Shown piece after piece: positions 1 to 17,828 of a stretch of DNA of 64,000 nucleotides (positions within the stretch are counted from its first letter, which is position 1; each line of letters begins with the position of its first letter). Both the position numbers and the translations under genes were made by a program. Below the pieces are notes generated by a model. The model was given only the letters and a program-made list of their open reading frames with translations. It was not told where the DNA came from and did no database searches. This DNA is from Rosettibacter firmus (GTDB taxonomy: Bacteria > Bacteroidota > Ignavibacteria > Ignavibacteriales > Melioribacteraceae), in NCBI RefSeq assembly GCF_036860695.1, contig NZ_JAYKGJ010000002.1, positions 626,001 through 690,000 on the forward strand, given 5' to 3'.

Positions 1-1784
1 GACTTGATGATTGGATAGAAGTTTATGATGACGAACGACTTGATATTAGAGATAAAAATTTATTTATAGAATTAACAGTGTTTCCACAAAAGTTTTATCA
101 AGAAAATTCTCTAATTACTAAAGGTTATCAGTTTGGTATAAAACAAATTAAAGAAGATTCTTTGAGTTTCTACATCAATTCATATAGAAATAGTTTGAAA
201 ATTAAATTACCAGATGATTGGTACAATAAATGGCACAAAGTAAAAGCAATTTATGATGGTAAAGAAATGTCAATCATAATTGATGAGAAAGTATTAGGTA
301 AAAAAGAATATAGTAGAGAAATAAACTCGTTACACTATCCAGTTAATATTGGGAGAGATTCATATCGTAATGATGATCAGCATTTAGGATGGTTGTCAAA
401 TTATATATTCGATGAAGTAAAATTATCCGATAAAATTAATGGCGAGCCTATCTTGTGGATAAAATTTGATGAGATTAAAGAAGGTCAGGATTACTACACA
501 TATGGAATAAGTCCTTTCTGTATAAATGGAATGGTTACTGCAGATAGAAAACCACAACCAGAACTTTGGCAGGCTAAACACAGCATGTCACCAGTGAGAT
601 TTTATTCTGTTAATCTTTCAGAAAGAAAATTCAAAGTTGTAAATAAAAATTCATTTACAAATCTTAATTACTATGACTTTGAATGGCTGTTGTATAAAGA
701 TGGAGTACTTGAATCATCAGGAAAATTCGACATAAACTTATTACCACAACAAGAAAAAGAAATAACATTGCCCATTCCTAAAAATTTAGATAATAATTCT
801 GAATATGTTTTAGAAATATCATGTAAGCAGAAATACGACGAACCATTCAAGCCAAAAGGTTTTGAAATTAATTTTGAACAGTTTGTACTTAATAAAAAAG
901 AGTTACAAGTTCATAACAAAAAAATAGATAATGCAAAAATTATTGAAGAGGATTCAATAGCATATTCTATAAAAATTAATGAAAACACATATCAAATAAA
1001 CAAACGAAGTGGTGACCTGAAATTAATTCGTAAAAATAACCCAATTATTTTGTCGATGACTGCTAATGTATGGCGTCCACCAATATCAAATGAAAAAGTA
1101 GATTGGGGTAAAGCAGAAGCAGAAGATTGGTATAGAATGGGATTGAATGAAATTAAAAATGAAGTAGAGGAAATCAAAATAGATACGATTAATTCAATGA
1201 TCAAAGTAAAATTAAACACTACTTTTTCTCGAACAAGTGATATTGTTATAAACGAGTTTACTTATAAATTTAACGAAAGAGGAGAAGTAGATGTTAAGCA
1301 CTTAATGATTCCACTTGGATATTTTAATGTAAACTGGTTACCATGTATTGGATTAAAGATACATGTTCCTGATAATTATAAAAATCTTACATGGTATGGA
1401 AGAGGCCCAATAGAAAATTATCCTGATAGAAAAACAGGTGCAAAGTTAGGAATACATAAGATTAATATAGATTCGTTAATGAATCCATATATAGAACCTC
1501 AAGAATATGGAAATTATTCTGATGTAAGATGGTTTGAATTAAAGAATGCTTCAGGTGAAGGAATAAGCATAATAGCTAAAAAGCCTTTGCATTTTTCTGT
1601 AGTTCCTTATTATAATCTTGATAGATCCAGATATACTTTTCAACTAAAGAAAGATGATTATTTAGTAGTTCGACTTAATTATAATATTACAGGTGTTGGA
1701 GATACACCAAATCCAGCAATGCCGCAATATAGGGTTTATCCAGAAATTTATTATAGTTCATTTACTCTAATTCCAATTTATTAA
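1..1784 (+). CDS. Beta-galactosidase (GH2), C-terminal part with LamG-like insert, 5' truncated by window
   Basis: The frame is open from base 3, so the true start and the catalytic TIM barrel lie before the window; about 593 C-terminal residues are visible. The first ~150 are a LamG/concanavalin A-like sandwich. Then comes the domain that follows the barrel in LacZ-type enzymes (from about 580), and then the large beta-galactosidase small-chain domain with the hallmark WYGRGPIENYPDR (about 1393-1430) and EPQEYGNYSDVRWFEL. The enzyme should remove terminal beta-galactose. It sits directly before a TonB receptor and an endo-galactanase, so galactan-derived oligosaccharides are the likely substrate. 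Family membership is clear; substrate is inferred. The visible part shows no sorting tail. Confidence 0.85.
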   Translation, partial: LDDWIEVYDDERLDIRDKNLFIELTVFPQKFYQENSLITKGYQFGIKQIKEDSLSFYINSYRNSLKIKLPDDWYNKWHKVKAIYDGKEMSIIIDEKVLGKKEYSREINSLHYPVNIGRDSYRNDDQHLGWLSNYIFDEVKLSDKINGEPILWIKFDEIKEGQDYYTYGISPFCINGMVTADRKPQPELWQAKHSMSPVRFYSVNLSERKFKVVNKNSFTNLNYYDFEWLLYKDGVLESSGKFDINLLPQQEKEITLPIPKNLDNNSEYVLEISCKQKYDEPFKPKGFEINFEQFVLNKKELQVHNKKIDNAKIIEEDSIAYSIKINENTYQINKRSGDLKLIRKNNPIILSMTANVWRPPISNEKVDWGKAEAEDWYRMGLNEIKNEVEEIKIDTINSMIKVKLNTTFSRTSDIVINEFTYKFNERGEVDVKHLMIPLGYFNVNWLPCIGLKIHVPDNYKNLTWYGRGPIENYPDRKTGAKLGIHKINIDSLMNPYIEPQEYGNYSDVRWFELKNASGEGISIIAKKPLHFSVVPYYNLDRSRYTFQLKKDDYLVVRLNYNITGVGDTPNPAMPQYRVYPEIYYSSFTLIPIY

Positions 1785-1897: not shown

Positions 1898-3595
1898 ATG
1901 AAAAGTATCTCATATAAAATACTAATTACAAGAATATTAATTACTGTACTTATTTCGCAATTTATTTTTATATGTAATAAAAATATTTATGGCTTTAATG
2001 ATACACTTGCTATTATTAATAAAAAAGTAATAACAGTTAATGACTTTATAAGCTTTTATAAAGATAAATTGATTCGTTATGGTCTTAATGATACTTATGA
2101 CTTGAGATTAAAATATTTATTAAATCTCGTGAGTGATGAGTTATTAATTGCTGAAGCAAAATCACAAAACTTACACAAAACAGATAAAGCTATAAAAGAA
2201 TTAAAACGAATTCAAACTCAGGAATTACTTAATGCTTATGTTACAAAACATATTTCAAATAAAATTAATGTAACAGAAAATGACCTGAAAGATTTATTTA
2301 TAAAATTAAATACAAAAATTAAAGTACGACATCTATTTGCTCGAACAAAAGATAAAGCTGATTCCTTGTTTAAAGAACTTCAAAATGGAAAAAGTTTTGA
2401 ACAATTAGCAAAAGAAAATTTCAATGATCCAGTTCTTAAAGAGAATGGTGGTCTTCTGGGTTATATATCCATAGATGAAGTGGATCCAGAATTTGAATCA
2501 GTTGCATTTTCTATGAAAATTGGAGAAGTGTCAAAACCTGTTAAAACTGTTTATGGATATAGTATTATAAAAGTTGAAGATATTAAACAAAATCCTTTTA
2601 CAACCGAGTATGAATTTTTGAAATCGAAAGAAAAATTAAAAATGTTTGCTCGCAAACGTGCTTTCGAAAAAGCTGCTAAAGAATATTCTCAAATACTACG
2701 TGAAAATTTAAATACGAAGTTTAATCATAAATTGTTGTCAAAATATTTCCTGAACTTTCAAAATGATTCTTTGAATTTGATAGTAGAACAACCATCAAAT
2801 ATTTCAACAAATGATTTAAATAAAATTGTGGTTACATCCAAACTCGAAAATTGGAGCTTGAAAAAATTAATTAATGAATTAAATAATGTACCAGAAAAGC
2901 AAAAAAAATGGATTCATACTCAAGAAAACCTTGAAGATTTTATTGCTGGTTTAATAAATAGAAAATACATTATTAAACAGGCAGAAAAAGAAAAGCTCAA
3001 TGAAAATCCTGATTATAAACAAAAAGTAGATTATAATTTTGATACTTATTTGTTAACAGAAATAGAAAATAAATTAAAAAGTAATATCACTATCTCTACA
3101 GATTCAATAAAAGTTTATTACGAAAAAAATAAAGACCTTTTCAAAACTAAACCACAAGTAAGATTAAGTAGTATTTTATTGAATGACTCTACTTTAGTGG
3201 ATACAATTCTAAGTAACTTAAAAAAAGGAGTACAATTCGATTTACTTGCTAAAAAATACTCTATACAAAAAATAACAGCAGAGCGAGGAGGTGATATAGG
3301 TTATTTTACAAAAGAAGAATTATATGAATATGGTGATAAAATATTTTCAATGAATGTTGGTGAATGGATTGGTCCATTAATTAACGATGGAAAATTTTTA
3401 TTCCTGAAGTGTACAGATAAAAAAGGTTCTGAAATAATTCCGTTTGAACAGGCTTATCGTGAAATAGAAGAAATGCTAAAAAACTTCAGGTGGTTTAAGT
3501 TAAGAAATGAATATGTAGAATCATTAAAAAATAAGTTTAGTTATAAAATAAATAAAGATAAACTGAAGTACTTAAAAATTAATAACAACATTTAA
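1898..3595 (+). CDS. Periplasmic peptidyl-prolyl isomerase with two parvulin domains (SurA/PrsA-like)
   Basis: This 565-residue protein has an N-terminal hydrophobic export segment (about 8-27). A helical chaperone region follows, then two parvulin (PPIC) domains at about 140-230 and 419-510. Both carry the family signature of a GG..GY stretch followed by F.M..GE and a glycine-rich end. Such proteins assist folding of outer-membrane and secreted proteins in the periplasm. The stop codon abuts the start of the TonB receptor, so the two are probably cotranscribed, and a dedicated role in assembling the local receptor or secreted enzymes is plausible. It is not a strict SurA orthologue by length or layout. 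Confidence 0.8.
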   Translation: MKSISYKILITRILITVLISQFIFICNKNIYGFNDTLAIINKKVITVNDFISFYKDKLIRYGLNDTYDLRLKYLLNLVSDELLIAEAKSQNLHKTDKAIKELKRIQTQELLNAYVTKHISNKINVTENDLKDLFIKLNTKIKVRHLFARTKDKADSLFKELQNGKSFEQLAKENFNDPVLKENGGLLGYISIDEVDPEFESVAFSMKIGEVSKPVKTVYGYSIIKVEDIKQNPFTTEYEFLKSKEKLKMFARKRAFEKAAKEYSQILRENLNTKFNHKLLSKYFLNFQNDSLNLIVEQPSNISTNDLNKIVVTSKLENWSLKKLINELNNVPEKQKKWIHTQENLEDFIAGLINRKYIIKQAEKEKLNENPDYKQKVDYNFDTYLLTEIENKLKSNITISTDSIKVYYEKNKDLFKTKPQVRLSSILLNDSTLVDTILSNLKKGVQFDLLAKKYSIQKITAERGGDIGYFTKEELYEYGDKIFSMNVGEWIGPLINDGKFLFLKCTDKKGSEIIPFEQAYREIEEMLKNFRWFKLRNEYVESLKNKFSYKINKDKLKYLKINNNI

Positions 3596-6358
3596 ATGCA
3601 TATGAAAACAAAAATTATAGCATTCGTAATAGTTTTCTTTCCATACATTTTGTATTCACAAAGTACTGGTAAAATTGCTGGGAAAGTAATTGACGCCAGC
3701 ACTGGCGAACCAATTGTAGGAGCAAATATAATAGTCGAAGGAACTAATTATGGTGCTGCTACAGATATTGAAGGCGAATATGTAATTGTAAAAGTTCCTT
3801 CAGGTAATTACAATGTAATAGCTTCATACATTGGATATGCAAAAACAATAACAAAAAATGTTCAGGTATATGCTGATTTAACGACTAACCTGAATTTCAA
3901 ATTAACTCCTACTACAGTAACTCTTAATCAGGAAATTGTTGTGGTTGCTCAAACTCCATTGGTAAAAAAAGATTTAACAGCAACCGAATCAAGAGTTACA
4001 TCGGAAGAAATTAGACAATTACCACTTCAAGATCTTAGCAGACTTATCAGTTTACAGGCAGGAGTAAGTAGAGATCAAAGTGGTGGCATTCATATAAGAG
4101 GTGGAAGAAGTAGTGAAGTCTCTTATTTATTAAATGGAATAAGCATCACCGATGATTTTACAAGAACGCAAGCATTAACAATAGAAACTGAATCAGTTCA
4201 GGAACTTCAAGTAATAAGTGGTTCATTTAATGCTGAATATGGTAATGCAATGAGTGGTGTTGTGAACATAATTACCAAAACTGGGGGATCTAAATTTCAG
4301 AGTAATTTTGAAGTATGGACTGGTGATTATTTGAGTAATCATAAAGATATTTTCTGGAATATAGAAAAGATTAATCCAGTCTCTAACTATAATTTTCAGG
4401 GTTCTGCTGGTGGACCAATTTTAAAAGATAATTTAAGATATTTTGTTTCTCTAAGAAGATACCATAATGGTGGTTATATTTATGGAATTAACAAATATAA
4501 TCCACAGGGAAGATATAAATTTGTTGATGGTCAATTAGTCCCAAATCCTGGTGATAGTTCATTTGTCTCTATGAACTGGAATGATAGATGGAGTGGTCAG
4601 GGAACACTTGACTGGAATATATCAGAAGGATTTAAATTAAAAATCGATGCGTTTGGTAGTCTTGAGAAAAGTAGATTTTATAATCACATTTATAGACTTA
4701 ATCCAAATGGAGATATGGGAGGAACAAGCAAGGGTTATAGTCTGTTTGCAAATTTAACTCATCTTATTTATACAAACACTTATCAAGAGCTATCATTTGC
4801 ATATAAATTTAATGAATTTATTTCAAGACTGTATGATGACCCCTATGATTCACGTTATGTTCATCCAGATTCAATGAATGTTCCAGGTTATCACTTTTTA
4901 AGAGCAGGAACAAATCTTAATAGATTTCAACGTAATACTGAAAGTTTTATTATAAAGTGGAGTTTCACCAGCCAATTAGATAAAATTAATTTAGCTAAAA
5001 TTGGTGCAGAATTACAGTTCGATAAATTATTTTATGAAAATATTACTTTAATTCCAGAAGTATTACCTAATGGTCAACAAGTTGTTCCATTCAGACCATA
5101 TATTCAGGGGATTGAATCACCACAACACGATCGATTCAATCGAAATCCTTTTAAGTTCAGTGCCTTTATTCAAGATAAAATTGAATTTGAAAGCTTGATT
5201 ATAAATGTTGGTCTCCGTTATGATTTATTTAATCCAAATGGTAAGATTCCAGTTGATCCAAGTGATCCAAATATTTTTAATCCATTTAAGCTCGAACACA
5301 TTTATAAAGATTTGAATAACGATGGAAAAATTGGACTCGATGAACAAAGAGAAGACAATAAATTTACACTTGCAGAAAAAGAAGCATTCTGGTATAAAAA
5401 AGCATCTATAAAATCACAATTAAGTCCTCGTGTTGGTATTGCATATCCAATTACAGATAAAGGGATTATACGATTTTCATATGGAATTTTTCAACAGATT
5501 CCTGAGTACAGCCAGCTTTACTTAGGAGATCAATTTAAATTAACTTCTGCTCAGGGTATTCAAGGACCTTTTGGAAATAATGATCTTAAACCACAAAAAA
5601 CTACAATCTACGAGCTTGGACTTCAACAACAATTTTTTGAAGACTTTGCTCTGGATGTAACAGCATTTTATCGTGATATTCGTGACTGGATTTCTTCAAG
5701 TCAACCTATTCCTACTTTCCTTGCTGGAATTTCTTATTCACAAAGAATTAATAGAGACTTTGCTAATGTACGGGGTATAACATTAGCAATTAACAAACGA
5801 TTTACAAATAATTATTCATTTGGTGTTGATTACACATTTCAAATTGCAGAAGGTACAAATTCTTCGCCAGACCAAGAATTCTTTTCACAGTTAAATGGAG
5901 CTGAGCCAACTAAAATTCTTTCTCCTTTAGATTGGGATCAAACTCATACTTTCAATGCTAATTTATATGTTGGTGATGTTGACTGGGGTTTAAGTCTAAT
6001 TTTTAACTTTTACACAGGTCAACCATATACTCCAACTTACATAGCAGGAGCTTATACTGGAAGAAATGTTCTAAGTGGTCTTGCTCAAAACAGTAGACGT
6101 AAACCATCAATTGCAAGACTTGATCTTGAATTACACAAGAACTTTAATTTTTCATTTCTGGATATTCAATTATTCTTAAAAGTTTTCAATCTACTTGATG
6201 CAAAAAATCCTGTGATTGTATTCGGAGATACTGGTAAACCAGATTTTACAATTGAAGAACTTCAGGTTCGTGATTACGATCCAGGATGGTTTGATTATCC
6301 AAACTTTTATAGTGAACCAAGAAATATTTACATCGGAACAAAAATTTACTTGAAATAA
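3596..6358 (+). CDS. TonB-dependent outer-membrane receptor with carboxypeptidase-regulatory-like N-terminal domain
   Basis: This 920-residue protein has a signal peptide (about 1-21), a CarboxypepD_reg-like beta-sandwich (about 24-105, starting GKIAGKVIDASTGEPIVGAN), a plug domain (about 120-235, with IHIRGGRSSEV and GNAMSGVVNIITKTGG) and a long 22-strand-type barrel to the C-terminus. It should import oligosaccharides across the outer membrane using TonB energy. It resembles SusC-like receptors in layout, but no SusD partner is adjacent. The start follows the upstream stop directly. A second ATG two codons in (3602) is equally possible, and neither has a clear Shine-Dalgarno. Substrate (galactan fragments) is inferred from neighbours. 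Confidence 0.88.
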   Translation: MHMKTKIIAFVIVFFPYILYSQSTGKIAGKVIDASTGEPIVGANIIVEGTNYGAATDIEGEYVIVKVPSGNYNVIASYIGYAKTITKNVQVYADLTTNLNFKLTPTTVTLNQEIVVVAQTPLVKKDLTATESRVTSEEIRQLPLQDLSRLISLQAGVSRDQSGGIHIRGGRSSEVSYLLNGISITDDFTRTQALTIETESVQELQVISGSFNAEYGNAMSGVVNIITKTGGSKFQSNFEVWTGDYLSNHKDIFWNIEKINPVSNYNFQGSAGGPILKDNLRYFVSLRRYHNGGYIYGINKYNPQGRYKFVDGQLVPNPGDSSFVSMNWNDRWSGQGTLDWNISEGFKLKIDAFGSLEKSRFYNHIYRLNPNGDMGGTSKGYSLFANLTHLIYTNTYQELSFAYKFNEFISRLYDDPYDSRYVHPDSMNVPGYHFLRAGTNLNRFQRNTESFIIKWSFTSQLDKINLAKIGAELQFDKLFYENITLIPEVLPNGQQVVPFRPYIQGIESPQHDRFNRNPFKFSAFIQDKIEFESLIINVGLRYDLFNPNGKIPVDPSDPNIFNPFKLEHIYKDLNNDGKIGLDEQREDNKFTLAEKEAFWYKKASIKSQLSPRVGIAYPITDKGIIRFSYGIFQQIPEYSQLYLGDQFKLTSAQGIQGPFGNNDLKPQKTTIYELGLQQQFFEDFALDVTAFYRDIRDWISSSQPIPTFLAGISYSQRINRDFANVRGITLAINKRFTNNYSFGVDYTFQIAEGTNSSPDQEFFSQLNGAEPTKILSPLDWDQTHTFNANLYVGDVDWGLSLIFNFYTGQPYTPTYIAGAYTGRNVLSGLAQNSRRKPSIARLDLELHKNFNFSFLDIQLFLKVFNLLDAKNPVIVFGDTGKPDFTIEELQVRDYDPGWFDYPNFYSEPRNIYIGTKIYLK

Positions 6359-6372
6359 AATTGGTAAGGTTT

Positions 6373-9300
6373 ATGAAAAAAATAATTTTACAATTTTTGG
6401 TCATATTTTTTGTATCACAAATATTTTATGGACAGGTTATAAAACATAAGCCCTCGGATTTCAGAGGCGATGTAAATTATAGACGCAATTCAAATGTTGA
6501 TGGAAATAATATTCGAGCAACCATATTTAATTCTGGATACAGTGGAGATCCTTCAAATAGACCAGATTATATTGATTACGAATGGCCAAAAAATACTAAT
6601 AGAATTTACATCGCTTTAATCGAAATCTTTCTGGGTGGCGAAGTAAAAAGTAATACAGGCGAAACAATTTATCTTGTTGAAATTCCAGCAGGTAGAACAG
6701 ATCCCTCAACTGGAAATTCATGGAATATGGAGCCCGTCCCAGGATTTTTAAATCCTCAACAAAATGAAATTGCAAGAAGTGATAAACCAGATTCCTGGCC
6801 TACTGCAGTTCAAGGTGGCTGGAGAGATAAAAGATCTGATCCAATTGATCCAGGTTGGGTTGGTTCGTGGAATGGTTTTTTTGGAAAAAACATTTTTAAT
6901 GCAGACCAAGAATTTTTCTTTGTTACATCTGATGACCTTTATAAAAGACAACCATATACACCAGATACTACTGATCTAACACGTGGTGGTCTTGGACTTT
7001 TAATGGATGTTAGAACATTAGCCTGGTCTCAAGTTTTAATTAACGACGTTTTATTTTTCATTCATGATATTAAAAATGATGGAACTAAAACTATTGATAA
7101 AACATCTTTCTGCCTCTTTGTAGCAGATTGGGTTGGTGGAGATGCTCCTGATGATTATCCTTATGTAGATTTACAGACCGCAACTACTTTTCTTACTGAT
7201 GCAGATAGAATTGGAACAGAAGCTTTTGGAACAAATCCAGTTGGTGTTGCATCACTTAAATATATTGAAACTCCAGGTAATCAAGTTAATGGAATAGATG
7301 ACGATGGAGATTCTGATGAATATTCAGATTTAATAAGTAGAATTCAAAATGCTGAAACTGTAATACCTCATTTTACAGCAAATGATTTTCAACCCAGATT
7401 TATTAGACCTGGAGATAAGATTGTTCTTATTGAACCAGAAACTTTTAATAGAATAATTACTGTATATCCTCAAAACGGTGGTATAGTAAAAAGTCTTGGA
7501 AAAGATTTTTATTTACCTCCAGAAGGAATTACTCTCAACGAAGATACTCTTGCTAATGGATTTGATGAAGATTTAGATGGATTGATTGATGAAAAAGAAA
7601 CTTTGCACTTATTCCACATAAACGAAATAACACAAACAACAAATCCTGTTCGATTTATAAATTATCTTTCATTTAATGTTGGTGATACAGTAAAAAGAGG
7701 TTTTTGTGTTGCTGGATTAAATGCAGAATGGAATTATCAAAATGTTGCACCAATGATAGATGAATCTCGTGATGATGGATTTGATAATGATAATGACTGG
7801 GATTCATTTCTTGACGATAATGGTCTCGATGGTGTAAGGGGAAGCGGGGATGAAGGAGAAAAAGATGGAAAACCCTCAAGTGGCTCTGGAACAAATTTTC
7901 CGGGCGAACCAAATATAGATAAAACTGATGTAAGCGAAACAGATTTAATTGGAATTACTGCTGCACTTCAAATTCCTGATGGTACTCTTAATTTTAATAC
8001 TGCACCAGATAAAGGAATGTGGGATTTATTAATGGTTCCAGGCAAAATTAATCTTGTTCGTCAGGTTGGTGAATTTCAAACTTATGTTTCATCTGGTTAC
8101 TTCCCGATTTTACCAGGTCAACGACAAAGAATGGCAGTTTCGATTGCAATTGCTGGCGGTGGTAATACCAAAGATGCTGATATTGAAAGTGTTATTAAAA
8201 AACAACGTCAGGCAACAACTGCTTATGCTGCAGATTATCAATTTGCTCAGGCACCTCTTCAAGTTACATTAACTGCTGTTCCCGGAGATGGACAGGTAAC
8301 ATTATATTGGGATGATGAAGCAGAAAAATCTTTTGATAGATATATAAATAAAATTGGTGGTAATGGTCGCGACTTCGAGGGTTATCGAATCTATCGCGCT
8401 ACAGATGCTGCTTTCCAGGATGCTAAAGTAATTACTGATGCTTATGGTGTAAAAACTTTACTTCGTCCAATTGCTCAATTTGACTTGAAAGATGGGATTA
8501 AAGGTTTGCATCCAATTGATATTAATGGAGTTAAATTTGACCTCGGTAACGATACTGGATTAAGACATGTTTACGTTGATAGAGATGTTGTTAATGGACA
8601 AAGATATTTTTATGCTGTTACTGCTTACGATTTTGGTTATGAGCCTGCTAGAATTCCTCCAACAGAAACTCCTATTCAAGTTAATGTTTATACAGATGGA
8701 ACAATAACTCATAGTAAAAATGTAGCTATTGTAAGACCAACTTCAAGTTCTGCAGGATATTTACCACCTGAAATTGAATATCTTAAACACACAAGTGGAG
8801 GTGCAAGTGGTAATATTAATTTCAGAATTATTGATCCATCAAAAATTAAAAATGGTCATGAATATGAAATAACTTTCAAAGATACAACCTATAAAATTGA
8901 TAATAGAGATGTAATTAGAACTGTTTCGTTTTCTTTAAAAAATGTTACTGAAAATAAATATTTATTGAAAGATGATAAAAGAATTAACATTGGAGATGAG
9001 CTTCCTGTTATTGATGGATTTCAAATGAGTCTAGAAAATGTTCAGGATATTTCAATAAACAATCTTAAAACAAAATGGAATGATCCTGATATCTATTCAT
9101 TCAATTTCGATACATTTACTTATCTTACAATAAAAGGTGTTACTAAACCAAGCGATTATAAAATAATTATTGGTGAACAAGGTTTATCAACTTCGAAAGA
9201 TACAACAATACTCGGAAGAAAATTTTCAGCCATCCCTGTTAATTTCAAAGTTATAAACACAACAGAAAATAAGGAGATTGAATTTTTATTTAGCGAAAGA

Positions 9301-9864
9301 GATGGAACTGATGGTAAATTGAGTATCGATCCAGTAAGTGGAAGAGCAGATGCCATTTACTTTCTTGAAAAAGATAAGAACGGTAAAAAAACATTTACAT
9401 GGCAATTTGCACTTAATCTCAAAGGGAAAAGAAATCCTCAGGCTGGCGATACACTAAATATTATACTCAACAAACCATTCCTTTCTTATGATGTATATAA
9501 TTTCAAAATGAAAAGCTCATCAATTTCTATTGATAAAGCTAAAGAAGAATTAGATAGAATAAGAGTTGTTCCAAATCCATATGTAGCAGCAGAAACATGG
9601 GAACCAAGAAATACTTATACAAGTGGACGTGGTCCTCGCGAAATTCATTTTATCAACTTACCAGCAAAATGTACAATAAGAATTTTTAATGTTAGTGGAG
9701 CTTTGATAAAAACTATCGAACACGATTCTCCTTATGAAAATGGAACTGAAATATGGGATGTATTAAGCGATGAAAAATTTGAAATAGCATATGGAATTTA
9801 TGTCTATCATGTTGATGCCCCTGGAATAGGTCAAAAAACAGGAACCTTTGCAATTATTAAATAA
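6373..9864 (+). CDS. Large secreted/surface protein with Asp-rich calcium-binding-like motifs and C-terminal sorting-like domain
   Basis: The chosen ATG is preceded by TAAGG; an in-frame TTG 12 bases earlier would add four residues before a typical signal peptide and is less likely. The protein has about 1163 residues. Acidic stretches NGIDDDGDSDE (~7290), DEDLDGLIDE (~7567) and DNDNDWDSFLDDNGLDG (~7785) resemble thrombospondin-3/dockerin-type calcium sites. A fibronectin-III-like segment lies near 8260-8650 (VTLYWDDEAE...GYRIYRA). The last ~95 residues (VVPNPY...GIYVYHVDA) look like a type IX sorting or assembly tail. Similar giant proteins follow TonB receptors in Ignavibacteria-like genomes. 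No catalytic domain was recognised, so the function is unknown; surface glycan capture is a guess. Confidence 0.7.
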   Translation: MKKIILQFLVIFFVSQIFYGQVIKHKPSDFRGDVNYRRNSNVDGNNIRATIFNSGYSGDPSNRPDYIDYEWPKNTNRIYIALIEIFLGGEVKSNTGETIYLVEIPAGRTDPSTGNSWNMEPVPGFLNPQQNEIARSDKPDSWPTAVQGGWRDKRSDPIDPGWVGSWNGFFGKNIFNADQEFFFVTSDDLYKRQPYTPDTTDLTRGGLGLLMDVRTLAWSQVLINDVLFFIHDIKNDGTKTIDKTSFCLFVADWVGGDAPDDYPYVDLQTATTFLTDADRIGTEAFGTNPVGVASLKYIETPGNQVNGIDDDGDSDEYSDLISRIQNAETVIPHFTANDFQPRFIRPGDKIVLIEPETFNRIITVYPQNGGIVKSLGKDFYLPPEGITLNEDTLANGFDEDLDGLIDEKETLHLFHINEITQTTNPVRFINYLSFNVGDTVKRGFCVAGLNAEWNYQNVAPMIDESRDDGFDNDNDWDSFLDDNGLDGVRGSGDEGEKDGKPSSGSGTNFPGEPNIDKTDVSETDLIGITAALQIPDGTLNFNTAPDKGMWDLLMVPGKINLVRQVGEFQTYVSSGYFPILPGQRQRMAVSIAIAGGGNTKDADIESVIKKQRQATTAYAADYQFAQAPLQVTLTAVPGDGQVTLYWDDEAEKSFDRYINKIGGNGRDFEGYRIYRATDAAFQDAKVITDAYGVKTLLRPIAQFDLKDGIKGLHPIDINGVKFDLGNDTGLRHVYVDRDVVNGQRYFYAVTAYDFGYEPARIPPTETPIQVNVYTDGTITHSKNVAIVRPTSSSAGYLPPEIEYLKHTSGGASGNINFRIIDPSKIKNGHEYEITFKDTTYKIDNRDVIRTVSFSLKNVTENKYLLKDDKRINIGDELPVIDGFQMSLENVQDISINNLKTKWNDPDIYSFNFDTFTYLTIKGVTKPSDYKIIIGEQGLSTSKDTTILGRKFSAIPVNFKVINTTENKEIEFLFSERDGTDGKLSIDPVSGRADAIYFLEKDKNGKKTFTWQFALNLKGKRNPQAGDTLNIILNKPFLSYDVYNFKMKSSSISIDKAKEELDRIRVVPNPYVAAETWEPRNTYTSGRGPREIHFINLPAKCTIRIFNVSGALIKTIEHDSPYENGTEIWDVLSDEKFEIAYGIYVYHVDAPGIGQKTGTFAIIK

Positions 9865-9878
9865 ATTTTAGAGAAGCC

Positions 9879-10916
9879 ATGAGAAAAGTAAAAAATAAAA
9901 TAGTTATTCTATTAGTGATTAGTACTATGTTACTACCACTTTCAAATTACGCTGCGGGAGTTAATAAAATTGGTACTGCAGCTGCAACATTTTTAAGAAT
10001 TCCAGTCGGAGCGAGAGCCACAGGTATGGGAAGTGCTTTTGTTTCGATGATAAACGATCCTTCTGCTATTTACTGGAATCCTTCTGTACTTTCTACAATT
10101 AAATCTAACTCTTTGCTTTTAGACCATTCACCCTGGATGCCAGGAATTAATTTTGATTTTATTGGAATTGTTCTCCCATTTGAAAATTTAGGTACAGTTG
10201 GAATAAGCACAACATTTCTCTATACTCAAGAAATGGATGTTACAACACCTTATGCACCAATGGGAACAGGGGAAACATTTACAGCTTCGAGTTTTGCTGT
10301 TGGAATTTCTTATAGCAGATATTTAACAGATAAATTTTCTATAGGTGGAACTTTTAAATTTATTAAAGAAACAATTTATAACACATCTGCTTCGGGAATA
10401 GCTTTTGACATTGGTACAATTTACGAAACTCCATTTGCTGGTATTAGATTAGGTGCAAGCATATCAAATTTTGGAACAAAAATGAGAATGTATGGTGAAG
10501 ATTTGAATGTTAGAGTAGATATAGCACCAAATCAAGAAGGAAATAATCAAAGTATTGTTGGTAAACTTAATACCGAAGAGTTTGATATGCCTTTAATTAT
10601 GCGAATAGGTATTTCTGGTGAAGTTATAAATACCGATTTAATTAGATGGACACTTTCTGCTGATGGAATAAACCCAAATGATAATGCACAGAGCATTAAT
10701 ATTGGAACTGAGATTGGATTATTGAATAATCAGGTTTTATTCCGTGCTGGTTACAAAGATTTATTTCTTGAAAATAATGAAACCGGGCTGACATTTGGCT
10801 TCAGTCTAAATGATGTAAAAGTTTTTGGTGATGTATTAATTACAACAGAATATGCATATCAAAATTTTGTGCATTTAGGTAATTCTAACAGATTTACATT
10901 AATTATAAAATTTTAA
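9879..10916 (+). CDS. PorV/PorQ-like outer-membrane beta-barrel protein
   Basis: This 345-residue protein has a clear signal peptide ending near NYAAG. It continues with the PorV-type start TAAATFLRIPVGARATGMG and the DPSAIYWNPS motif, then alternating beta-strands to a terminal FTLIIKF. In type IX secretion PorV shuttles cargo on the outer membrane and helps remove or attach sorting domains; this family is often expanded near secreted glycan enzymes. Its place between the 1163-residue secreted protein and the tail-bearing binding protein fits a role as a dedicated secretion partner. It could be a paralogue rather than the main PorV. Confidence 0.75.
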   Translation: MRKVKNKIVILLVISTMLLPLSNYAAGVNKIGTAAATFLRIPVGARATGMGSAFVSMINDPSAIYWNPSVLSTIKSNSLLLDHSPWMPGINFDFIGIVLPFENLGTVGISTTFLYTQEMDVTTPYAPMGTGETFTASSFAVGISYSRYLTDKFSIGGTFKFIKETIYNTSASGIAFDIGTIYETPFAGIRLGASISNFGTKMRMYGEDLNVRVDIAPNQEGNNQSIVGKLNTEEFDMPLIMRIGISGEVINTDLIRWTLSADGINPNDNAQSINIGTEIGLLNNQVLFRAGYKDLFLENNETGLTFGFSLNDVKVFGDVLITTEYAYQNFVHLGNSNRFTLIIKF

Positions 10917-10981: not shown

Positions 10982-13030
10982 ATGAAAAGAAAGACAAACA
11001 ACATTTATTCATTTATAACTTTTATCGTTACCATGTTAATTTTTAATTCAATAAGTGCACAAATGGTAACAGTAAAAATGAGAATAAATACAGCTACAGT
11101 TTTAGACACATTGCGTCCAAACCATATTGTTTTGGTTTGTGGAGAATCGCAAAAAGGAACAGATCCAGCAATTACATGGGATAAAAATACCGGCATAAAA
11201 GCAAAAAATATTGGTGGCGATTACTGGGAAGCAGAGTTTAAAGCCTATCCAGGAGATGTAATTAAATATAAATTTGTAACTTATTTTGATCTTAATACTC
11301 CTACATTTCACTGGTCTGGATGGGAAGGACCAATTGATGCTGGTTTTGCAACAGGTGATAACAGAGGATTAATAGTTGGCGATAAAGATACAACACTTCC
11401 AATTCAATATGTGAATGGCTGGGAAAATAAAGTCCAGCAATTCTGGAAACCTTTTGAAATCAAACCAGATTCAATTGCAATCTATTTCAGGGTAAATATG
11501 GGTGGTGCTAATTTCGATCCTGAAAAACAAGAAGTTGAAGTAAGAGGTGGTGCTCCACTTGGAACAGATAATCCATGGATAAAAATTTGTACTTTAAAAC
11601 GTGAAGTTAATAGTGTAAATGGAGGTTCATTCTGGTCTGGTGTAGCATATGTTGCAAAATCTGCAGTAACACCTGGAACTGTTCAGCAATTTAAATTTGT
11701 TATCAAATCTCCAGAAACATGGGAAAGTACACCAAATCGCTCCTTCACTTTCACTGAGGATATTATAAACAGTGGCGAAGTAACCATTCACTGGTATTAT
11801 TTCAATGATGTAATGCCTCGTGGCTCAAAAGTTTCAGCAAATGTTCTTTTTAGATTAAGATTGGATGCACTTGAAAAAGCTAATTTATTTAATAGAGCAC
11901 TCGGAGATAAAGTAGGAGTAACTGGTCCAAAAGGCTGGGCTTCTGGTGATTTTAATTTTGACACCGATCCTACAGTTCTCAAAATGACTTACAACCCTGA
12001 CCTCGAAGAATGGGATTTACTTGAACCATTTACTCTTTTCCCAAACGAAGTATTGAGTTATAAATATTATATTGCCTGGGATTCTTCTCGTGTTGATCCA
12101 AATAGCCCAAACTATATTCCCGGTTTACAACTTTCTAATGGCTGGGAAGAACCAGGTGTAACCGGTGGTGCAGATAGAAAATATACATTTACTGATCAAC
12201 CTGAACAGATTGTACCGGGTGATTTTGGTGCAGAATATCAATTCTTTAATAGTATTCATCCAAACGGTGTAATTAAAAATCCACTTAAACTCAAATTCAA
12301 AATTAATATGGCACCAGCTACTGATGTTGTAACAAATCCTACAAATCCACTTTTCAGACCGGGACTTGATACTGCTTATATTCAATTTGATGGAAGCTTA
12401 ATTCCTATTACTCAAGGTAAAACTATGTATGGAAGTGATAATCGTGTTATGTTGAGTGATCCTGATGGTGATATGATTTATACTGGTGAAATTGATCTAA
12501 ATCCTCCTACTTTTTATCAAGTTTGTTATAGAATAGTTTATACATCTCCTCAAGGTGAAATATGGAATGGTGGAGGTGTTCAAAAAGGAAGAAGATATTA
12601 TCAATACATTTTGCCAGTAAGTATAAATCCAGTTGTTTGGCCAGATACTTATGAACTCGCTTTAATGCAATGGAAAGCTTCTGATTTGACCGTGGAAGAT
12701 CATCCTGACTTAGGTCCAGTTACAGATATAGAGGCAGAACATGCAGTACCAACTGCTTATAAACTTTATCAAAATTATCCTAATCCATTTAATCCATCAA
12801 CAGTAATTACTTATGCAATACCAAAGACAGAAAATGTTAAGCTTGAGATTTATAATATACTCGGTCAAAAGGTAATTACTTTGTTTGATGGTCAACAATA
12901 TGCTGGAACTCATAGCATTTCATGGAATGGCAAAAATGATTTTGGACAGGATGTTACATCTGGAGTTTACTTTGTAAAACTAAGTGCTGGTTCGTTCTCT
13001 CAAGCTAAAAAAATGATGTTGATTAGATAA
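10982..13030 (+). CDS. Surface carbohydrate-binding protein: four beta-sandwich modules plus type IX sorting tail
   Basis: The 682-residue protein has a signal peptide (1-26), then four modules of about 120-150 residues (about 27-170, 171-288, 289-430, 431-575). The first begins VTVKMRINTATVLDTLRPN and the second SIAIYFRVNMGG. Residues ~598-682 form a classic sorting tail (YQNYPNPFNPSTVITYAIP ... FGQDVTSGVYFVKL). No enzyme motif is visible. The first two modules match the two modules attached to the neighbouring galactanase, so it is probably a non-catalytic surface glycan-binding protein, analogous to SusE/SusF. The stop codon is one base from the galactanase start, indicating one operon. 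Confidence 0.75.
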   Translation: MKRKTNNIYSFITFIVTMLIFNSISAQMVTVKMRINTATVLDTLRPNHIVLVCGESQKGTDPAITWDKNTGIKAKNIGGDYWEAEFKAYPGDVIKYKFVTYFDLNTPTFHWSGWEGPIDAGFATGDNRGLIVGDKDTTLPIQYVNGWENKVQQFWKPFEIKPDSIAIYFRVNMGGANFDPEKQEVEVRGGAPLGTDNPWIKICTLKREVNSVNGGSFWSGVAYVAKSAVTPGTVQQFKFVIKSPETWESTPNRSFTFTEDIINSGEVTIHWYYFNDVMPRGSKVSANVLFRLRLDALEKANLFNRALGDKVGVTGPKGWASGDFNFDTDPTVLKMTYNPDLEEWDLLEPFTLFPNEVLSYKYYIAWDSSRVDPNSPNYIPGLQLSNGWEEPGVTGGADRKYTFTDQPEQIVPGDFGAEYQFFNSIHPNGVIKNPLKLKFKINMAPATDVVTNPTNPLFRPGLDTAYIQFDGSLIPITQGKTMYGSDNRVMLSDPDGDMIYTGEIDLNPPTFYQVCYRIVYTSPQGEIWNGGGVQKGRRYYQYILPVSINPVVWPDTYELALMQWKASDLTVEDHPDLGPVTDIEAEHAVPTAYKLYQNYPNPFNPSTVITYAIPKTENVKLEIYNILGQKVITLFDGQQYAGTHSISWNGKNDFGQDVTSGVYFVKLSAGSFSQAKKMMLIR

Positions 13031-13031
13031 T

Positions 13032-15254
13032 ATGAAATTATTAGGAAAAATATTTTTAATTCTGACTCTTTTTTGTTTGAATTTGTATTCACAGACTGAT
13101 GATTTTATAAGAGGAGTGGACATTTCGTTCACTCCTCAAATTGAAGATCTTGGTGGTAAATATAAATTAAATGGTGTTGTTAAAGATTTACTGGATATTC
13201 TAAAGGAAAAAGGTGTGAATTATATTCGATTAAGAATATGGCACACTCCAAAAGATGGCTATTGTGGATTAGAAAAAACAATTCAATTTGCAAAGAGAAT
13301 AAAAGAAAAAGGTTTTAAATTTTTACTTGATTTTCACTATTCAGATTCATGGGCAGACCCAGAAAAACAAACCAAACCCGCTGCATGGTCTAACCTTTCT
13401 TTTGAATCTTTAAAAGATAGTGTTTATTCATACACAAAATTTGTACTCGAATCTCTAAGAGCTAATAATGTTCTCCCAGAAATGGTACAGATTGGAAATG
13501 AAGTCACAAATGGTATGCTCTGGCCTGATGGAAAAATCTATGATCCAACTCTTAATCAAAGTATACAATGGGTAAAGTTTGCACAACTTCTTCAAGCAGG
13601 CATTAATGCCGTAAAAGATGTTGATTCATCAAACATTAAAATTATGATTCACATTGATAGAGGTGGTGATAATAATGGCGCAGTGTATTTCTTCAATAAA
13701 TTAAAAGAACAAAAAATTAATTTTGATGTAATTGGGCTTTCATTTTATCCCTGGTGGCATGGAACTCTTGAACAATTGAAATATAATTTGAATGATTTAT
13801 CAACAAGATATAATAAAGATATTATTGTTGTTGAAACAGCTTATCCATGGACATTAAACTATCAAATCGATAATCATGGAAATATAGTAGGACAAAATAC
13901 AAAATTATTACAGGGTTTTCCTGCTTCGTTGAAAGGACAAAAAGATTTCTTAATTATTCTAAAAAAAATCATAAAAGAAACAAAGAATAATAAAGGGAAA
14001 GGATTTTTTTATTGGGAACCAGCTTATATTTCTGTACCACCAATTGGTTCATCATGGGAAAATTTAACACTTTTTGGTTTTACAAATTCAAATCTCGAGG
14101 CTGAAGCACTTTCATCAATAGATGTTTTTCTTCCTGATGTAGATTATGCAACTATAAATGTTAAAATGAGAATAAATACTTCTACATTAAATGATACATT
14201 AAAACCAAATGGAATTGTTCAATTAAGAGGAGAAGTAAAAGGAAAAAGTTCAAGTTTATTACCAAGTGGTGAAAGAATTACCTGGGATAATCTTTCAGAA
14301 TTAATTTTCAAAAATATTGATGGAGATAATTGGGAATATACATTTCAAATGTATGAAGGAGATACTCTTGAATATTCAATTTGGACAGGTCATACAAAAA
14401 CTAAATATACTTATTTGAGTGGAGGCTGGGAGGGTCCTGTTATTCCTTTTGATAATAGCAATAAAAATTATCGATTATTTATTGCAGGCAAAAATGATAC
14501 AATACTTCCTGTTCAATATTATAATTCTTCAAAAAGTAAAATTTATCAGTACTTTTCACCATTCAAACAGAATAATGATTCAATTGGTATTATGTTCAGA
14601 GTCAATCTCGCACATTTGATGAGCAAAGGAATTTTTGATCCTGCGAAAAATGGTCCAGTTGTTGTTCGAGGGGATTCAATCGAATCAGAAGGAATTCTTT
14701 CCTGGAATAGAAATAAATTAATCTTAAAAAGAGAAGAACCGAGTGTTGCAAATAATTCATTCTGGTCTGGAATTGTCTATTTTCCAAAATATTTAATTCA
14801 AAAAGGACGTAAAATTCATTATAAATTTTATATAGATAATGCACCATTCAATGGCTGGGAAAATTCAATACCAGATCGATATTTTTATTTTCCTTCAGAA
14901 GACTCAACATTAGCATGGAAATTTTTTAATGATAAAAATTTGATCACAGATATAAAAGAAGACAAATCTTTACCTGATGATATAAAACTATATCAAAATT
15001 ATCCTAATCCATTTAATTCAAGCACAACAATAAAATATGAGCTTAATAAAGATTCTTATGTATCTCTGTGTATTTATAATTCTCTTGGTGAATTAGTAAA
15101 AGTCCTTGATAATAAATTCATTAAAGCTGGTTCTTATTCAATTCTCTGGGATGGAAGAGATGATAATGGTATTTACGTACCTTCTGGAATATATTTCCTG
15201 AATTTAGTAGCAAACGAAAAAAGACTTGTTAATAAATTAATTTTATTAAAGTGA
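13032..15254 (+). CDS. Arabinogalactan endo-beta-1,4-galactanase (GH53) with two binding modules and sorting tail
   Basis: This 740-residue protein has a signal peptide (1-20) and a GH53 TIM barrel (about 24-368). The opening FIRGVDISFTPQIEDLGG and LRIWHTP are characteristic. The likely acid/base is Glu157 in QIGNEVTNGMLWP and the nucleophile Glu268 in VVETAYPWT. Two beta-sandwich modules follow (about 374-515 and 516-640), homologous by eye to modules of the preceding gene. A YQNYPNPFN sorting tail closes the protein. It should cleave beta-1,4-galactan, the side chain of rhamnogalacturonan I, at the cell surface. This gene gives the strongest clue to the substrate of the whole locus. Confidence 0.92.
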   Translation: MKLLGKIFLILTLFCLNLYSQTDDFIRGVDISFTPQIEDLGGKYKLNGVVKDLLDILKEKGVNYIRLRIWHTPKDGYCGLEKTIQFAKRIKEKGFKFLLDFHYSDSWADPEKQTKPAAWSNLSFESLKDSVYSYTKFVLESLRANNVLPEMVQIGNEVTNGMLWPDGKIYDPTLNQSIQWVKFAQLLQAGINAVKDVDSSNIKIMIHIDRGGDNNGAVYFFNKLKEQKINFDVIGLSFYPWWHGTLEQLKYNLNDLSTRYNKDIIVVETAYPWTLNYQIDNHGNIVGQNTKLLQGFPASLKGQKDFLIILKKIIKETKNNKGKGFFYWEPAYISVPPIGSSWENLTLFGFTNSNLEAEALSSIDVFLPDVDYATINVKMRINTSTLNDTLKPNGIVQLRGEVKGKSSSLLPSGERITWDNLSELIFKNIDGDNWEYTFQMYEGDTLEYSIWTGHTKTKYTYLSGGWEGPVIPFDNSNKNYRLFIAGKNDTILPVQYYNSSKSKIYQYFSPFKQNNDSIGIMFRVNLAHLMSKGIFDPAKNGPVVVRGDSIESEGILSWNRNKLILKREEPSVANNSFWSGIVYFPKYLIQKGRKIHYKFYIDNAPFNGWENSIPDRYFYFPSEDSTLAWKFFNDKNLITDIKEDKSLPDDIKLYQNYPNPFNSSTTIKYELNKDSYVSLCIYNSLGELVKVLDNKFIKAGSYSILWDGRDDNGIYVPSGIYFLNLVANEKRLVNKLILLK

Positions 15255-15263
15255 GTGTAAAAT

Positions 15264-17828
15264 ATGTTTAAGAAAACTTTATTATTTCTTTTTATAATTT
15301 TCTCGGTTATATATTCTCAAAGGAATGAAAATAATATCTATGTTGATAAAGATGGTATACTTAGATGGCAAAATACAGATGAAGAAGTAAGATTATTTGG
15401 AGTAAATTATACCACACCATTTGCTTATGCTTATAGAGCTCATAAAAGATTGGGACTTTCATTAAAACAAGCAATTGATCTTGATGTTGAGCAATTCGTT
15501 CGACTTGGATTTGATGCTTTTAGAGTTCATATGTGGGATAGAGAAATTTCTGATAAAGAAGGAAATCTTTTACAGAATGAACATCTTGATTTATTTGATT
15601 ATCTCATCTACAAACTTTCACAAAAAGGAATAAAAATAATTATCACACCAATTGCATGGTGGGGAACAGCCTGGCCTGAACCTGAGTTCGAGACACCAGG
15701 TTTCTCAAGTTCTTATTCAAAAGTTGAAATGATTTCAAATCCAGATGCACGAAAATCACAAAAAAATTATTTGAAACAAATTATAAATCATTTCAATCCT
15801 TATACTAAACTAAAATACAAAGACGAACCATCAATTATAGCAGTTGAAATTATTAATGAACCACATCATCCAGATGATACATCACTTGTTAGAAAATACA
15901 TAAATGAAATGTATGATGCATTACGTGAAGAGAATTTCACTAAACCTATTTTTTACAATATTAGCGAAAGCTGGAGTGATTCACAGGCTCAAGCAGTTTG
16001 CAACTCTAAAGTTGAAGGTGTTTCATTTCAATGGTATCCCACAGGTTTAGTTCACAATAAAATTTTAAATGGCAATTATTTAATTAATGTTAACAAGTAT
16101 AAAATTCCATCTGAAAATATTAAAGGATTTAATCAAAAAGCAAAAATGGTATACGAATTTGATGCTGCTGACATAGGTTCTTCTTTTATGTATCCAGCAA
16201 TGGCAAGAAGTTTTAGAGAAGCAGGAATGCAATTTGCAACTATGTTCGCTTACGATCCTTCTCAAATTGCATGGAGTAATACTGAATATCAAACTCATTT
16301 TCTAAATCTTTTATACACACCTTCAAAAGCCATTAGTTTGATGATTGCCTCGAAAGTATTTCATTATTTGCATAAAAAATCTTATGGAGATTTTCCTCAA
16401 AATAACAGGTTCGAAAATTTTAGAATTAGTTATGAAGAGAATTTAACAGAATTAAATTCACCAGTAGAATTTATTTATTCTAATTCTACACAATCTCTCC
16501 CTGTTTCTCCAGATAGTTTGATTTTGATAGCTGGTACTGGTAATTCGAAAATTATTAATTATGACGGAACTGGAGCATACTTTTTAGAAAAAAAAGAAAG
16601 TGGAATATGGAGACTGGAAGTATATCCAGATGTTTTATGGCTCAGAGATCCTTTTGAACAAACAAGTACAAAAAAACAAATCGCAAAACTTTTCTGGAAT
16701 GAAAGAACTATAAAAATATTTCTCCCTGAACTAAAAGAAAATTTTAAAATCATTCCTTTAAGCAGTAATCAAAAATCTTTTTATTCATTTAAAAATGAAT
16801 TTAAAGTTAAACCAGGAATTTATTTGCTTTGTGTAAATAATCTGGAGTCTAATAAGGTCAAGAAATATTTAAATCGTAAAAAATTTTTAGATGGTTTATA
16901 TACTCCAGAATTTAAGAATGATCTTCCTGTTGATGTAGTGAATAAAACACCGCACTATATTTTAGTTAATGATTATCAAAAATTTCTTTTTGAAATTGCA
17001 TCTAAAGAAAACATTGAAGAAGCAGCTTTGTACATAAGAAGATTAGGATGGAGAAGATTTCAAAAATTTATTCTAAAAAACACACACGGCTTTAATTATG
17101 TTTTAAGTGATTCACTAAACTTATTAAATGCTGGCGACCTTGAATTCTGTGTAACAGCTAAAATTAATAACAAAGTATACACATTTCCTGATGGCAAAGA
17201 AATTAGTCCAGATGATTGGGATTTTTACTTTGATAATTTATGGAAGACAAAAGTTTTAGATAAAAATACACCTGTTGAATTATTTAATGCATCAAGAGAT
17301 TATAAAGATTTAGTTTTTCCACAATTTACAAACTCAACAAGATTTTTTGTTGATTACAATAATGGTTCTACAAGTGAATTAAGCACAATTAAAATATCAG
17401 TGCAAACATCTGGCAAAGATGAATTTCCATTTGGATTTCAATTAAACCTGAGCACAATATTAAATTCTATTAAAAGCAATCTATCTAATTACAAAACAAT
17501 TATTCTAAAAGCTCGCACATTGAATGATGATAAACTTAAGATGAAAATTAATTTTATTACTGATGATGGCAAATGTTTTCAGAGTGAAACTGAATTAAGC
17601 AAGTTAATGGAAGAAAAAGTTTTATCATTAGATGATTTCAAAAAAGGATCTTCTTTAATCCTTCCATTTTCATATCCAAAATTTCTACCAAAAATTTGGA
17701 ATAATAATTCACAATCAGAAAATGAAAAGTTGACTTTAGATAAAGTAGAATTTCTTCAGTTTATAATTGATAAAAATGAAAACAAACCAGACCACACTTT
17801 TGAAATAGAAAGTTTGATAATAAAATAA
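15264..17828 (+). CDS. Secreted GH5-like (clan GH-A) glycoside hydrolase, unassigned subfamily
   Basis: This 854-residue protein has a signal peptide (1-19). The TIM barrel spans about 24-360: LFGVNYTTPFAYAYRAH near strand 1, RVHMWD near strand 3, Glu199 in VEIINEP (acid/base) and Glu298 in MVYEFDAADIG (probable nucleophile). About 490 further residues contain beta-rich segments I cannot name. It ends without the sorting tail seen on its two upstream neighbours, so it may stay in the periplasm. Clan membership is well supported; the substrate is not, although its position last in the galactan operon suggests arabinogalactan or a linked mannan/galactan fragment. Confidence 0.75.
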   Translation: MFKKTLLFLFIIFSVIYSQRNENNIYVDKDGILRWQNTDEEVRLFGVNYTTPFAYAYRAHKRLGLSLKQAIDLDVEQFVRLGFDAFRVHMWDREISDKEGNLLQNEHLDLFDYLIYKLSQKGIKIIITPIAWWGTAWPEPEFETPGFSSSYSKVEMISNPDARKSQKNYLKQIINHFNPYTKLKYKDEPSIIAVEIINEPHHPDDTSLVRKYINEMYDALREENFTKPIFYNISESWSDSQAQAVCNSKVEGVSFQWYPTGLVHNKILNGNYLINVNKYKIPSENIKGFNQKAKMVYEFDAADIGSSFMYPAMARSFREAGMQFATMFAYDPSQIAWSNTEYQTHFLNLLYTPSKAISLMIASKVFHYLHKKSYGDFPQNNRFENFRISYEENLTELNSPVEFIYSNSTQSLPVSPDSLILIAGTGNSKIINYDGTGAYFLEKKESGIWRLEVYPDVLWLRDPFEQTSTKKQIAKLFWNERTIKIFLPELKENFKIIPLSSNQKSFYSFKNEFKVKPGIYLLCVNNLESNKVKKYLNRKKFLDGLYTPEFKNDLPVDVVNKTPHYILVNDYQKFLFEIASKENIEEAALYIRRLGWRRFQKFILKNTHGFNYVLSDSLNLLNAGDLEFCVTAKINNKVYTFPDGKEISPDDWDFYFDNLWKTKVLDKNTPVELFNASRDYKDLVFPQFTNSTRFFVDYNNGSTSELSTIKISVQTSGKDEFPFGFQLNLSTILNSIKSNLSNYKTIILKARTLNDDKLKMKINFITDDGKCFQSETELSKLMEEKVLSLDDFKKGSSLILPFSYPKFLPKIWNNNSQSENEKLTLDKVEFLQFIIDKNENKPDHTFEIESLIIK

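Follow-up and report, generated by a model that had tools for sequence, protein, structure and literature searches.

A tandem CBM20-type module pair shared by a candidate surface binder and a GH53 galactanase of Rosettibacter firmus

A stretch of 64,000 nucleotides from Rosettibacter firmus (RefSeq assembly GCF_036860695.1, contig NZ_JAYKGJ010000002.1, positions 626,001 to 690,000; hereafter the window) carries a gene cluster in which two adjacent proteins share a unit of two modules: protein A, a candidate surface binder, and protein B, a galactanase of glycoside hydrolase family GH53. Homology and predicted fold place both modules in the superfamily of CBM20, a carbohydrate-binding module (CBM) family regarded as starch-binding. 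The reading we favour, and consider rather probable, is that this tandem pair of beta-sandwiches belongs to a lineage that moved once from an alpha-glucan (starch) system to a beta-1,4-galactan system. It draws directly on homology, predicted fold, domain order, gene order and the grouping of the GH53-linked copies. A more tentative proposal, which we regard as possible, is that this CBM20 lineage, after one change of ligand and present on both binder and galactanase, provides the interchangeable recognition component of a glycan importer that works without SusD (TonB receptor, the protein u1167 and a PorV-like protein).

The module pair and its kinship with CBM20

In a BLASTP alignment of A against B, residues 29-276 of A and 375-634 of B are identical in 101 of 265 columns (38%, 144 bits, E 3e-40), while the best of 1000 shuffles of the B region scores 25.8 bits. 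A first-pass annotation of the sequence had described this shared unit from its motifs, and all of these are present in the two open reading frames (ORFs): VKMRINT (A31/B377), ITWD (A64/B416), WEGP (A114/B466), FRVN (A169/B522), FDP (A178/B535), VRGG (A187) or VRGD (B545), and FWSG (A217/B577). The span it gave, 10982-14950, also fits, the unit of B ending at 14933. The tails for the type IX secretion system (T9SS) form a second, separate match between the proteins (E 1e-22, BLASTP). The genes lie on the forward strand with 1 base between them. When the genome is searched with a single sequence (E <= 0.1), the unit turns up nowhere else. A family profile adds a divergent third relative in the same genome, a 611-aa protein of a starch cassette (domain E about 1e-12).

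At E <= 1, Pfam CBM_20 matches 35 of a set of 38 aligned pairs that includes both pairs of the window; the lowest E value is 8.2e-13. When modules are scanned singly at E <= 0.1, a match is found for 12 of 30 in the first position and 17 of 30 in the second. A profile-profile comparison shows modules 1 and 2 to be homologous (probability 98.9%, E 1.1e-17). An AlphaFold model of A, made with 33 sequences, has a predicted local distance difference test score (pLDDT) of 88. In the VIA structural list, its module 1 (residues 24-146) matches the glucoamylase CBM20 2vn4 with Z 12.2 over 99 residues (root mean square deviation 2.4), followed by CBM20 domains of other glucoamylases and, at Z about 10-11, of KIAA1434, cyclodextrin glucanotransferase (CGTase) and STBD1; identity over the matches to CBM20 domains is 14-27%. 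That list hardly covers modules 2 to 4 of A, and the fold of module 2 was placed by its sequence profile, which retrieves from the PDB the CBM20 chains of STBD1 (E 7.3e-5), CGTases and glucoamylase. Foldseek with the whole A model gave mainly multi-domain chains (TM-scores 0.08-0.12), and the VIA list was used instead. In the STBD1 alignment the motifs land on CBM20 landmarks, namely the G-W stretch, FWS (aligned to FWSG of A module 2), WKF for YKF, and WE..NR. Both modules have the predicted CBM20 beta-sandwich fold, module 1 by its model and module 2 by its profile.

The first-pass annotation had proposed carbohydrate-binding modules of a new, unnamed family, with a hidden Markov model search against CBM families as the check. 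The binding-module part is backed by the CBM20 homology; the novelty is not, given the kinship seen in Pfam, in the fold of module 1 and in the profile of module 2. The search itself came out divided: the relatives match CBM_20 as described, whereas the window copies stay under the cut-off of 23.3 bits (A 20.2, B 14.6, the isolated A pair 23.2), and for this reason no family stands out on visual inspection. In addition, a PDB search with a profile built from module 1 alone brought up no CBM20 chain, so that the assignment of this module depends on the predicted model, the homology to module 2 and the 12 of 30 single-module matches. These two observations are what a genuinely new family, unrelated to CBM20 in fold or origin, has in its favour. 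Set against the 35 of 38 matching pairs, the structural match of module 1, the profile matches of module 2 and the homology between the modules, we hold such a family to be very improbable and have rejected it on the Pfam, fold and profile results. Because the window copies remain under the cut-off while aligned relatives reach E 8.2e-13, the pair is assigned to the CBM20 superfamily rather than to CBM20 itself.

A proposed move from starch to galactan: context, tree and ligand

Full or partial relatives of the unit occur in 54 of 296 sampled genomes of the phylum and 48 of 245 of the class (E <= 0.001, window genome counted). A scan of named genomes yielded 77 loci from Ignavibacteria, KSB1, Calditrichota, Neomarinimicrobiota, Balneolales, Rhodothermales and unplaced Bacteroidetes. 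Together with 40 hand-chosen regions from the phylum and class matches and the window itself, 118 regions were mapped; 111 contain a strong pair (7 were dropped), and removal of 13 duplicate regions left 98 distinct loci for the enzyme counts. Usually the unit is found in a T9SS-tailed protein behind TonB, u1167 and PorV genes: with duplicates kept, a PorV-like gene plus a TonB receptor or u1167 is in view at 84 of the 111 loci, and a PorV-like gene lies directly upstream of 83 of the 110 module genes that have an upstream ORF.

The enzymes nearby separate the loci. GH53 is fused to the unit at 15 of the 98 distinct loci (window counted), and GH13 accompanies none of these 15; among the 83 unfused loci GH13 is present at 48, two of which also have a separate GH53 (Fisher p 2e-5 for the GH13 split, the loci not being independent). 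GH13 was called by similarity to the catalytic parts of Pfam-confirmed GH13 proteins with trimmed queries, and divergent GH13 may escape. Across the wider family, the linkage is to starch genes rather than to galactan genes. Among the downstream genes at loci L095 and L084, Pfam finds LacI, GH13 with a T9SS tail, other GH13, GH57 with CBM_20 and a major facilitator superfamily transporter, by sequence a predicted starch operon; at L087, a third starch-type locus, the two downstream genes scanned encode a prolyl isomerase and a TPR protein. The picture differs at seven of the 15 GH53-fused loci, where 15 further downstream proteins were scanned: seven GH2, two GH42, two of lacto-N-biose-phosphorylase type, two galactokinases, one aldose 1-epimerase and one without match, with no GH13 among them. 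At the KSB1 GH53 loci L160 and L163, the genes of lacto-N-biose-phosphorylase type and GH42 lie downstream, hinting at phosphorolytic use of galactosides.

A tree was built from 117 of the 123 pairs (short IQ-TREE search, SH-aLRT only). In it, the A copies of the GH53 loci cluster together (support 99), as do the B copies (73; 95 for 13 of the 15). A and B together make up 28 rows with support 90, and this group adjoins GH13-linked copies from KSB1 and Calditrichota (93 and 95). Apparently, then, the GH53-linked copies are nested among starch-linked ones and result from a single recruitment. The simplest history would be that the pair left the starch context once, was duplicated once and was fused to GH53 once.

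Gene context and tree together lead us to favour galactan as the probable ligand of the A and B pairs. A switch is chemically easy to imagine: in alpha-1,4-glucan as in beta-1,4-galactan, each linkage joins an axial to an equatorial bond, and the chains of both are curved and helical. Aspergillus niger glucoamylase with its CBM20 is described as binding potato beta-1,4-galactan in affinity electrophoresis, while the form lacking CBM20 did not (PMC4978508); this suggests a latent affinity as a route for the switch and makes the galactan reading plausible. Among the literature matches listed (titles and abstract openings) for galactan-binding CBM20, CBM61 and galactanases, SusE and galactan, and the cassette, there was no paper on the module pair.

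The binding residues bear on this ligand from both sides. Site 1 of CBM20 is given as Trp543, Lys578 and Trp590 in A. niger glucoamylase (PMC9920598). We placed the corresponding triads by motif, using the STBD1 alignment and the profile alignment between modules 1 and 2, a sequence-based placement made without superposition. A has W-K-W in both modules and B in module 2 only, with Ser for Lys in module 1. The full triad is present in 13 of 13 A copies for either module, in 46 of 47 (module 1) and 44 of 47 (module 2) GH13-linked copies, in 40 and 37 of the 42 copies with no enzyme in view, and in 10 and 9 of the 15 B copies. Near W114, T108 occurs in 28 of 28 GH53-linked against 7 of 47 GH13-linked copies, and G116 in 26 of 28 against 8 of 47; P117 occurs in 22 of 28 GH53-linked copies, and all 13 A copies have W111; the starch-linked ones are variable in this area. 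WEGP itself was considered as a signature of the galactan clade and rejected, as the GH13-linked KSB1 copy L165 carries it too.

It might be argued from the complete triads of the A copies that alpha-glucan has remained the ligand of the pair, with A and B tethered to starch beside pectin so that the galactanase merely gains proximity to plant material. The mostly starch-linked family would agree with this, as would the fact that the polysaccharide targeted by a CBM need not be the substrate of its enzyme (discussed in PMC4978508). Nonetheless, no GH13 was found at any of the 15 GH53-fused loci, galactose genes take its place in the seven scanned, and T108, G116 and P117 around W114 differ from the starch-linked copies (a point tempered by WEGP in L165). 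Moreover, the genome has a separate starch cassette (at C1), consisting of GH31, GH13, PpiC, TonB receptor, a u1167 paralogue, PorV, the 611-aa T9SS protein and another GH13. The 611-aa protein, with matches to AMPK1_CBM, CBM20, CBM48 and CBM53, occupies the position that A has in the window. Starch therefore has its own machinery, and the window cluster looks built for galactan. We regard continued alpha-glucan binding as unlikely.

About equally improbable in our view is that the pair mainly assembles or spaces proteins, its CBM20-fold domains joining A to B or to u1167, PorV and the TonB receptor with little glycan binding. One pair on two proteins of the same cluster would suit docking, the triad has decayed in part of the B copies, and 8 of 10 larger relatives scanned carry DUF5689, BNR/sortilin-like or FG-GAP repeats in front of the pair; enzymes had been expected there, and the other two gave no match. 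Against docking stand the nearly invariant triads of the GH13-linked copies and the retention in A of three consecutive homologous modules.

Several points also weigh against a move from starch to galactan. The galactan result cited above concerns one enzyme and one method, and its authors treat it as binding of a non-substrate (PMC4978508). The window copies score below the CBM_20 cut-off, module 1 by its profile alone does not reach CBM20, and the tree depends on a short search with one support measure. GH13 is not in view at 35 of the 83 distinct unfused loci, in part owing to contig ends and to flanks limited to 10 kb. The Rhodothermales loci L199 and L228 may serve both starch and galactan, as the gene of a starch-type module protein precedes GH13 and separate genes of GH53-like proteins there. 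Finally, of the 15 B copies, 5 have lost parts of the triad in module 1 (in the window copy, the Lys) and 6 in module 2, so that binding by some B modules may be weak or absent, and the intact glucan triad of A means that A could still bind alpha-glucan.

The window cluster and its putative SusD-free import genes

The cluster runs LacZ, PpiC, TonB receptor, u1167, PorV, A, B and GH5, with gaps of 0-113 bases (Table 1). Both A and B exceed the TIGR04183 cut-off and are, by sequence, predicted cargo of T9SS type A; the modelled tail of A matches that of PorU with Z 12.1 (VIA). The GH53 domain of B is full-length (profile positions 1-336 of 340, 373.2 bits, cut-off 24). In A, module 4 appears only weakly related to modules 1 to 3.

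Table 1. Genes and modules of the galactan cluster, in window coordinates
Feature	Position	Strand	Basis or remark
LacZ-type GH2 beta-galactosidase, truncated by window start	3..1784	+	Pfam/NCBIfam
PpiC-type prolyl isomerase	1898..3595	+	Pfam; gene recurs beside many such cassettes
TonB-dependent receptor, SusC-like N-terminal domain	3596..6358	+	Pfam/NCBIfam
u1167, 1167 aa, conserved TonB receptor partner	6361..9864	+	Fold matches; no Pfam family
PorV/PorQ-family outer membrane protein, directly upstream of A	9879..10916	+	NF033709 187.1 bits
Protein A, 682 aa	10982..13030	+	Predicted N-terminal helix/signal region, three CBM20-like modules, divergent fourth, T9SS tail
A module 1, residues 29-158, CBM20-like, triad W66/K97/W114	11066..11455	+	Fold match Z 12.2, glucoamylase CBM20
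A module 2, residues 161-277, CBM20-like, triad W199/K238/W247	11462..11812	+	PDB profile matches; Pfam CBM_20 weak
A module 3, residues 283-424	11828..12253	+	hhalign 98.2 and 98.3% to modules 1 and 2
A module 4, residues 434-565	12281..12676	+	Model mostly strands; hhalign 4, 86 and 91% to modules 1-3
A C-terminal T9SS type A sorting domain, residues 591-682	12752..13027	+	TIGR04183 47.8 bits, cut-off 23
Protein B, 740 aa: GH53, module pair, T9SS tail	13032..15254	+	Pfam/NCBIfam
B GH53 catalytic domain, residues 26-357	13107..14102	+	PF07745 E 1.5e-111
B module 1, triad positions W418, S449 (Lys lost), W466	14157..14564	+	Alignment with A
B module 2, triad W558/K598/W609	14571..14933	+	Alignment with A; Pfam CBM_20 14.6 bits
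B T9SS tail, residues 657-737	15000..15242	+	TIGR04183 31.9 bits, cut-off 23
GH5-related enzyme, last galactan-cluster gene	15264..17828	+	PF00150 E 1.2e-7; relative in 10 of 15 GH53-fused loci

From these parts we infer surface display, galactan binding and uptake. A would be exported through T9SS and held at the cell surface, where its modules would gather polysaccharide as SusE and SusF do for starch, making A a putative SusE-like surface binder. In B, the pair between the GH53 domain and the T9SS tail would keep the endo-galactanase on its chain. The oligosaccharides released would pass through the TonB receptor with u1167 and be finished by the LacZ (GH2) and GH5 enzymes. The PpiC-type isomerase is perhaps a dedicated chaperone for large surface proteins.

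The receptor partner u1167 has no Pfam family, and among 35 aligned members three families have a single weak match each. SusD families are not among the matches of u1167 (E <= 1) or of these members (E <= 0.01), and PF07980 and PF14322 find no SusD in the window genome, a Bacteroides control being positive. In its model (pLDDT 81) the N-terminal part is fold-like to the beta-supersandwich domains of GH94 and GH116: starting near residue 35, VIA aligns 251-275 residues best with a cyclic glucan synthase, GH94 phosphorylases and GH116 (Z 16.6-17.9, identity 8-11%). The tail resembles that of PorZ (Z 11.1, 92 residues, 27%, VIA) and is not detected by the Pfam or NCBIfam T9SS models; Foldseek also puts PorZ on top, at a TM-score of 0.09 and with no good overall match.

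Relatives of u1167 (E <= 1e-20) occur in 108 of the 296 phylum genomes, including 54 of 54 module-bearing ones, and SusD_RagB occurs in 155. We considered mutual exclusion of the two across the phylum and rejected it: 55 genomes have both, 53 only u1167, 100 only SusD and 88 neither. Within the order of the window genome, SusD is found in 3 of 28 u1167-bearing genomes. Gene order and fold are consistent with the idea that u1167 may play the part of SusD. The cassette around the module pair suggests that many Bacteroidota and neighbouring phyla may import glycans via a non-SusD partner outside the Pfam models.

The window genome has four more TonB-u1167-PorV sets (L134, L135, L136 and L137): one with the starch GH13 and GH31, one beside a CBM9/T9SS protein with two GH3, one beside an ABC solute-binding protein, and one that is itself divergent. 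Elsewhere, L065, L071/L171 (one contig), L169 and L172 encode proteins of 1245-1333 aa with two complete module pairs each, behind TonB-u1167-PorV and with no GH13 seen at these loci; VWA-domain proteins adjoin them in L171 and L172. In some Bacteroidota metagenome-assembled genomes (L101/L202, on one contig, L209 and L214), two to five module-pair genes stand in rows, with no TonB cassette in view. A genome of the same family (G019, L139) has LacZ, GH53 and GH5 in a row, its GH53 with a plain T9SS tail; neither the module pair nor TonB-u1167-PorV was found in the 20 kb fetched.

Comparison with known systems

If the proposed history is true, the clade fixed on galactanases would be a clear natural change of ligand within the CBM20 superfamily, with starch-linked sister copies at hand for a residue-by-residue comparison, and a CBM20-like annotation alone need not mean starch. 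With CBM20 of glucoamylase, CGTase and STBD1, the modules share the predicted fold, the motif order (RG..W, FWS, a YKF-like motif, WE..NR) and the W-K-W triad. They differ in that the window copies score under the Pfam cut-off, form a tandem pair and, in the GH53 clade, have beta-1,4-galactan as predicted ligand. GH53 endo-beta-1,4-galactanases paired with the galactan-binding CBM61 are known. Such enzymes resemble B in joining GH53 to a binding module, but that of B is of CBM20 type; a CBM61 match was not seen in the Pfam scan at E up to 1, the CBM61 coverage of the library being unconfirmed.

Like SusE/SusF and the SusE-like protein of BT4667-BT4673, A places several modules of glycan-binding type beside a SusC-like TonB receptor. 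Differences are that A has a T9SS tail, shows by inspection no Cys near its N terminus, and comes from a genome in which SusD was not found. SusE and SusF are lipoproteins of tandem binding modules next to SusC and SusD; A is not classed as SusE, although it may work like SusE.

The starch cassette resembles the 'sus operon' Mros0764-0758 described for Melioribacter roseus, with GH31, GH13, a SusC-type receptor, its partners and a secreted GH13 with CBM48 (PMC3534657). The resemblance is one of gene content; the partners are named SusD and SusE by its authors, whereas u1167 matches no SusD family. For the window cluster itself, the list of parts resembles that given for the pectic galactan polysaccharide utilization locus of Bacteroides thetaiotaomicron, namely GH2, GH53, SusE, SusD and SusC (PMC5238430).

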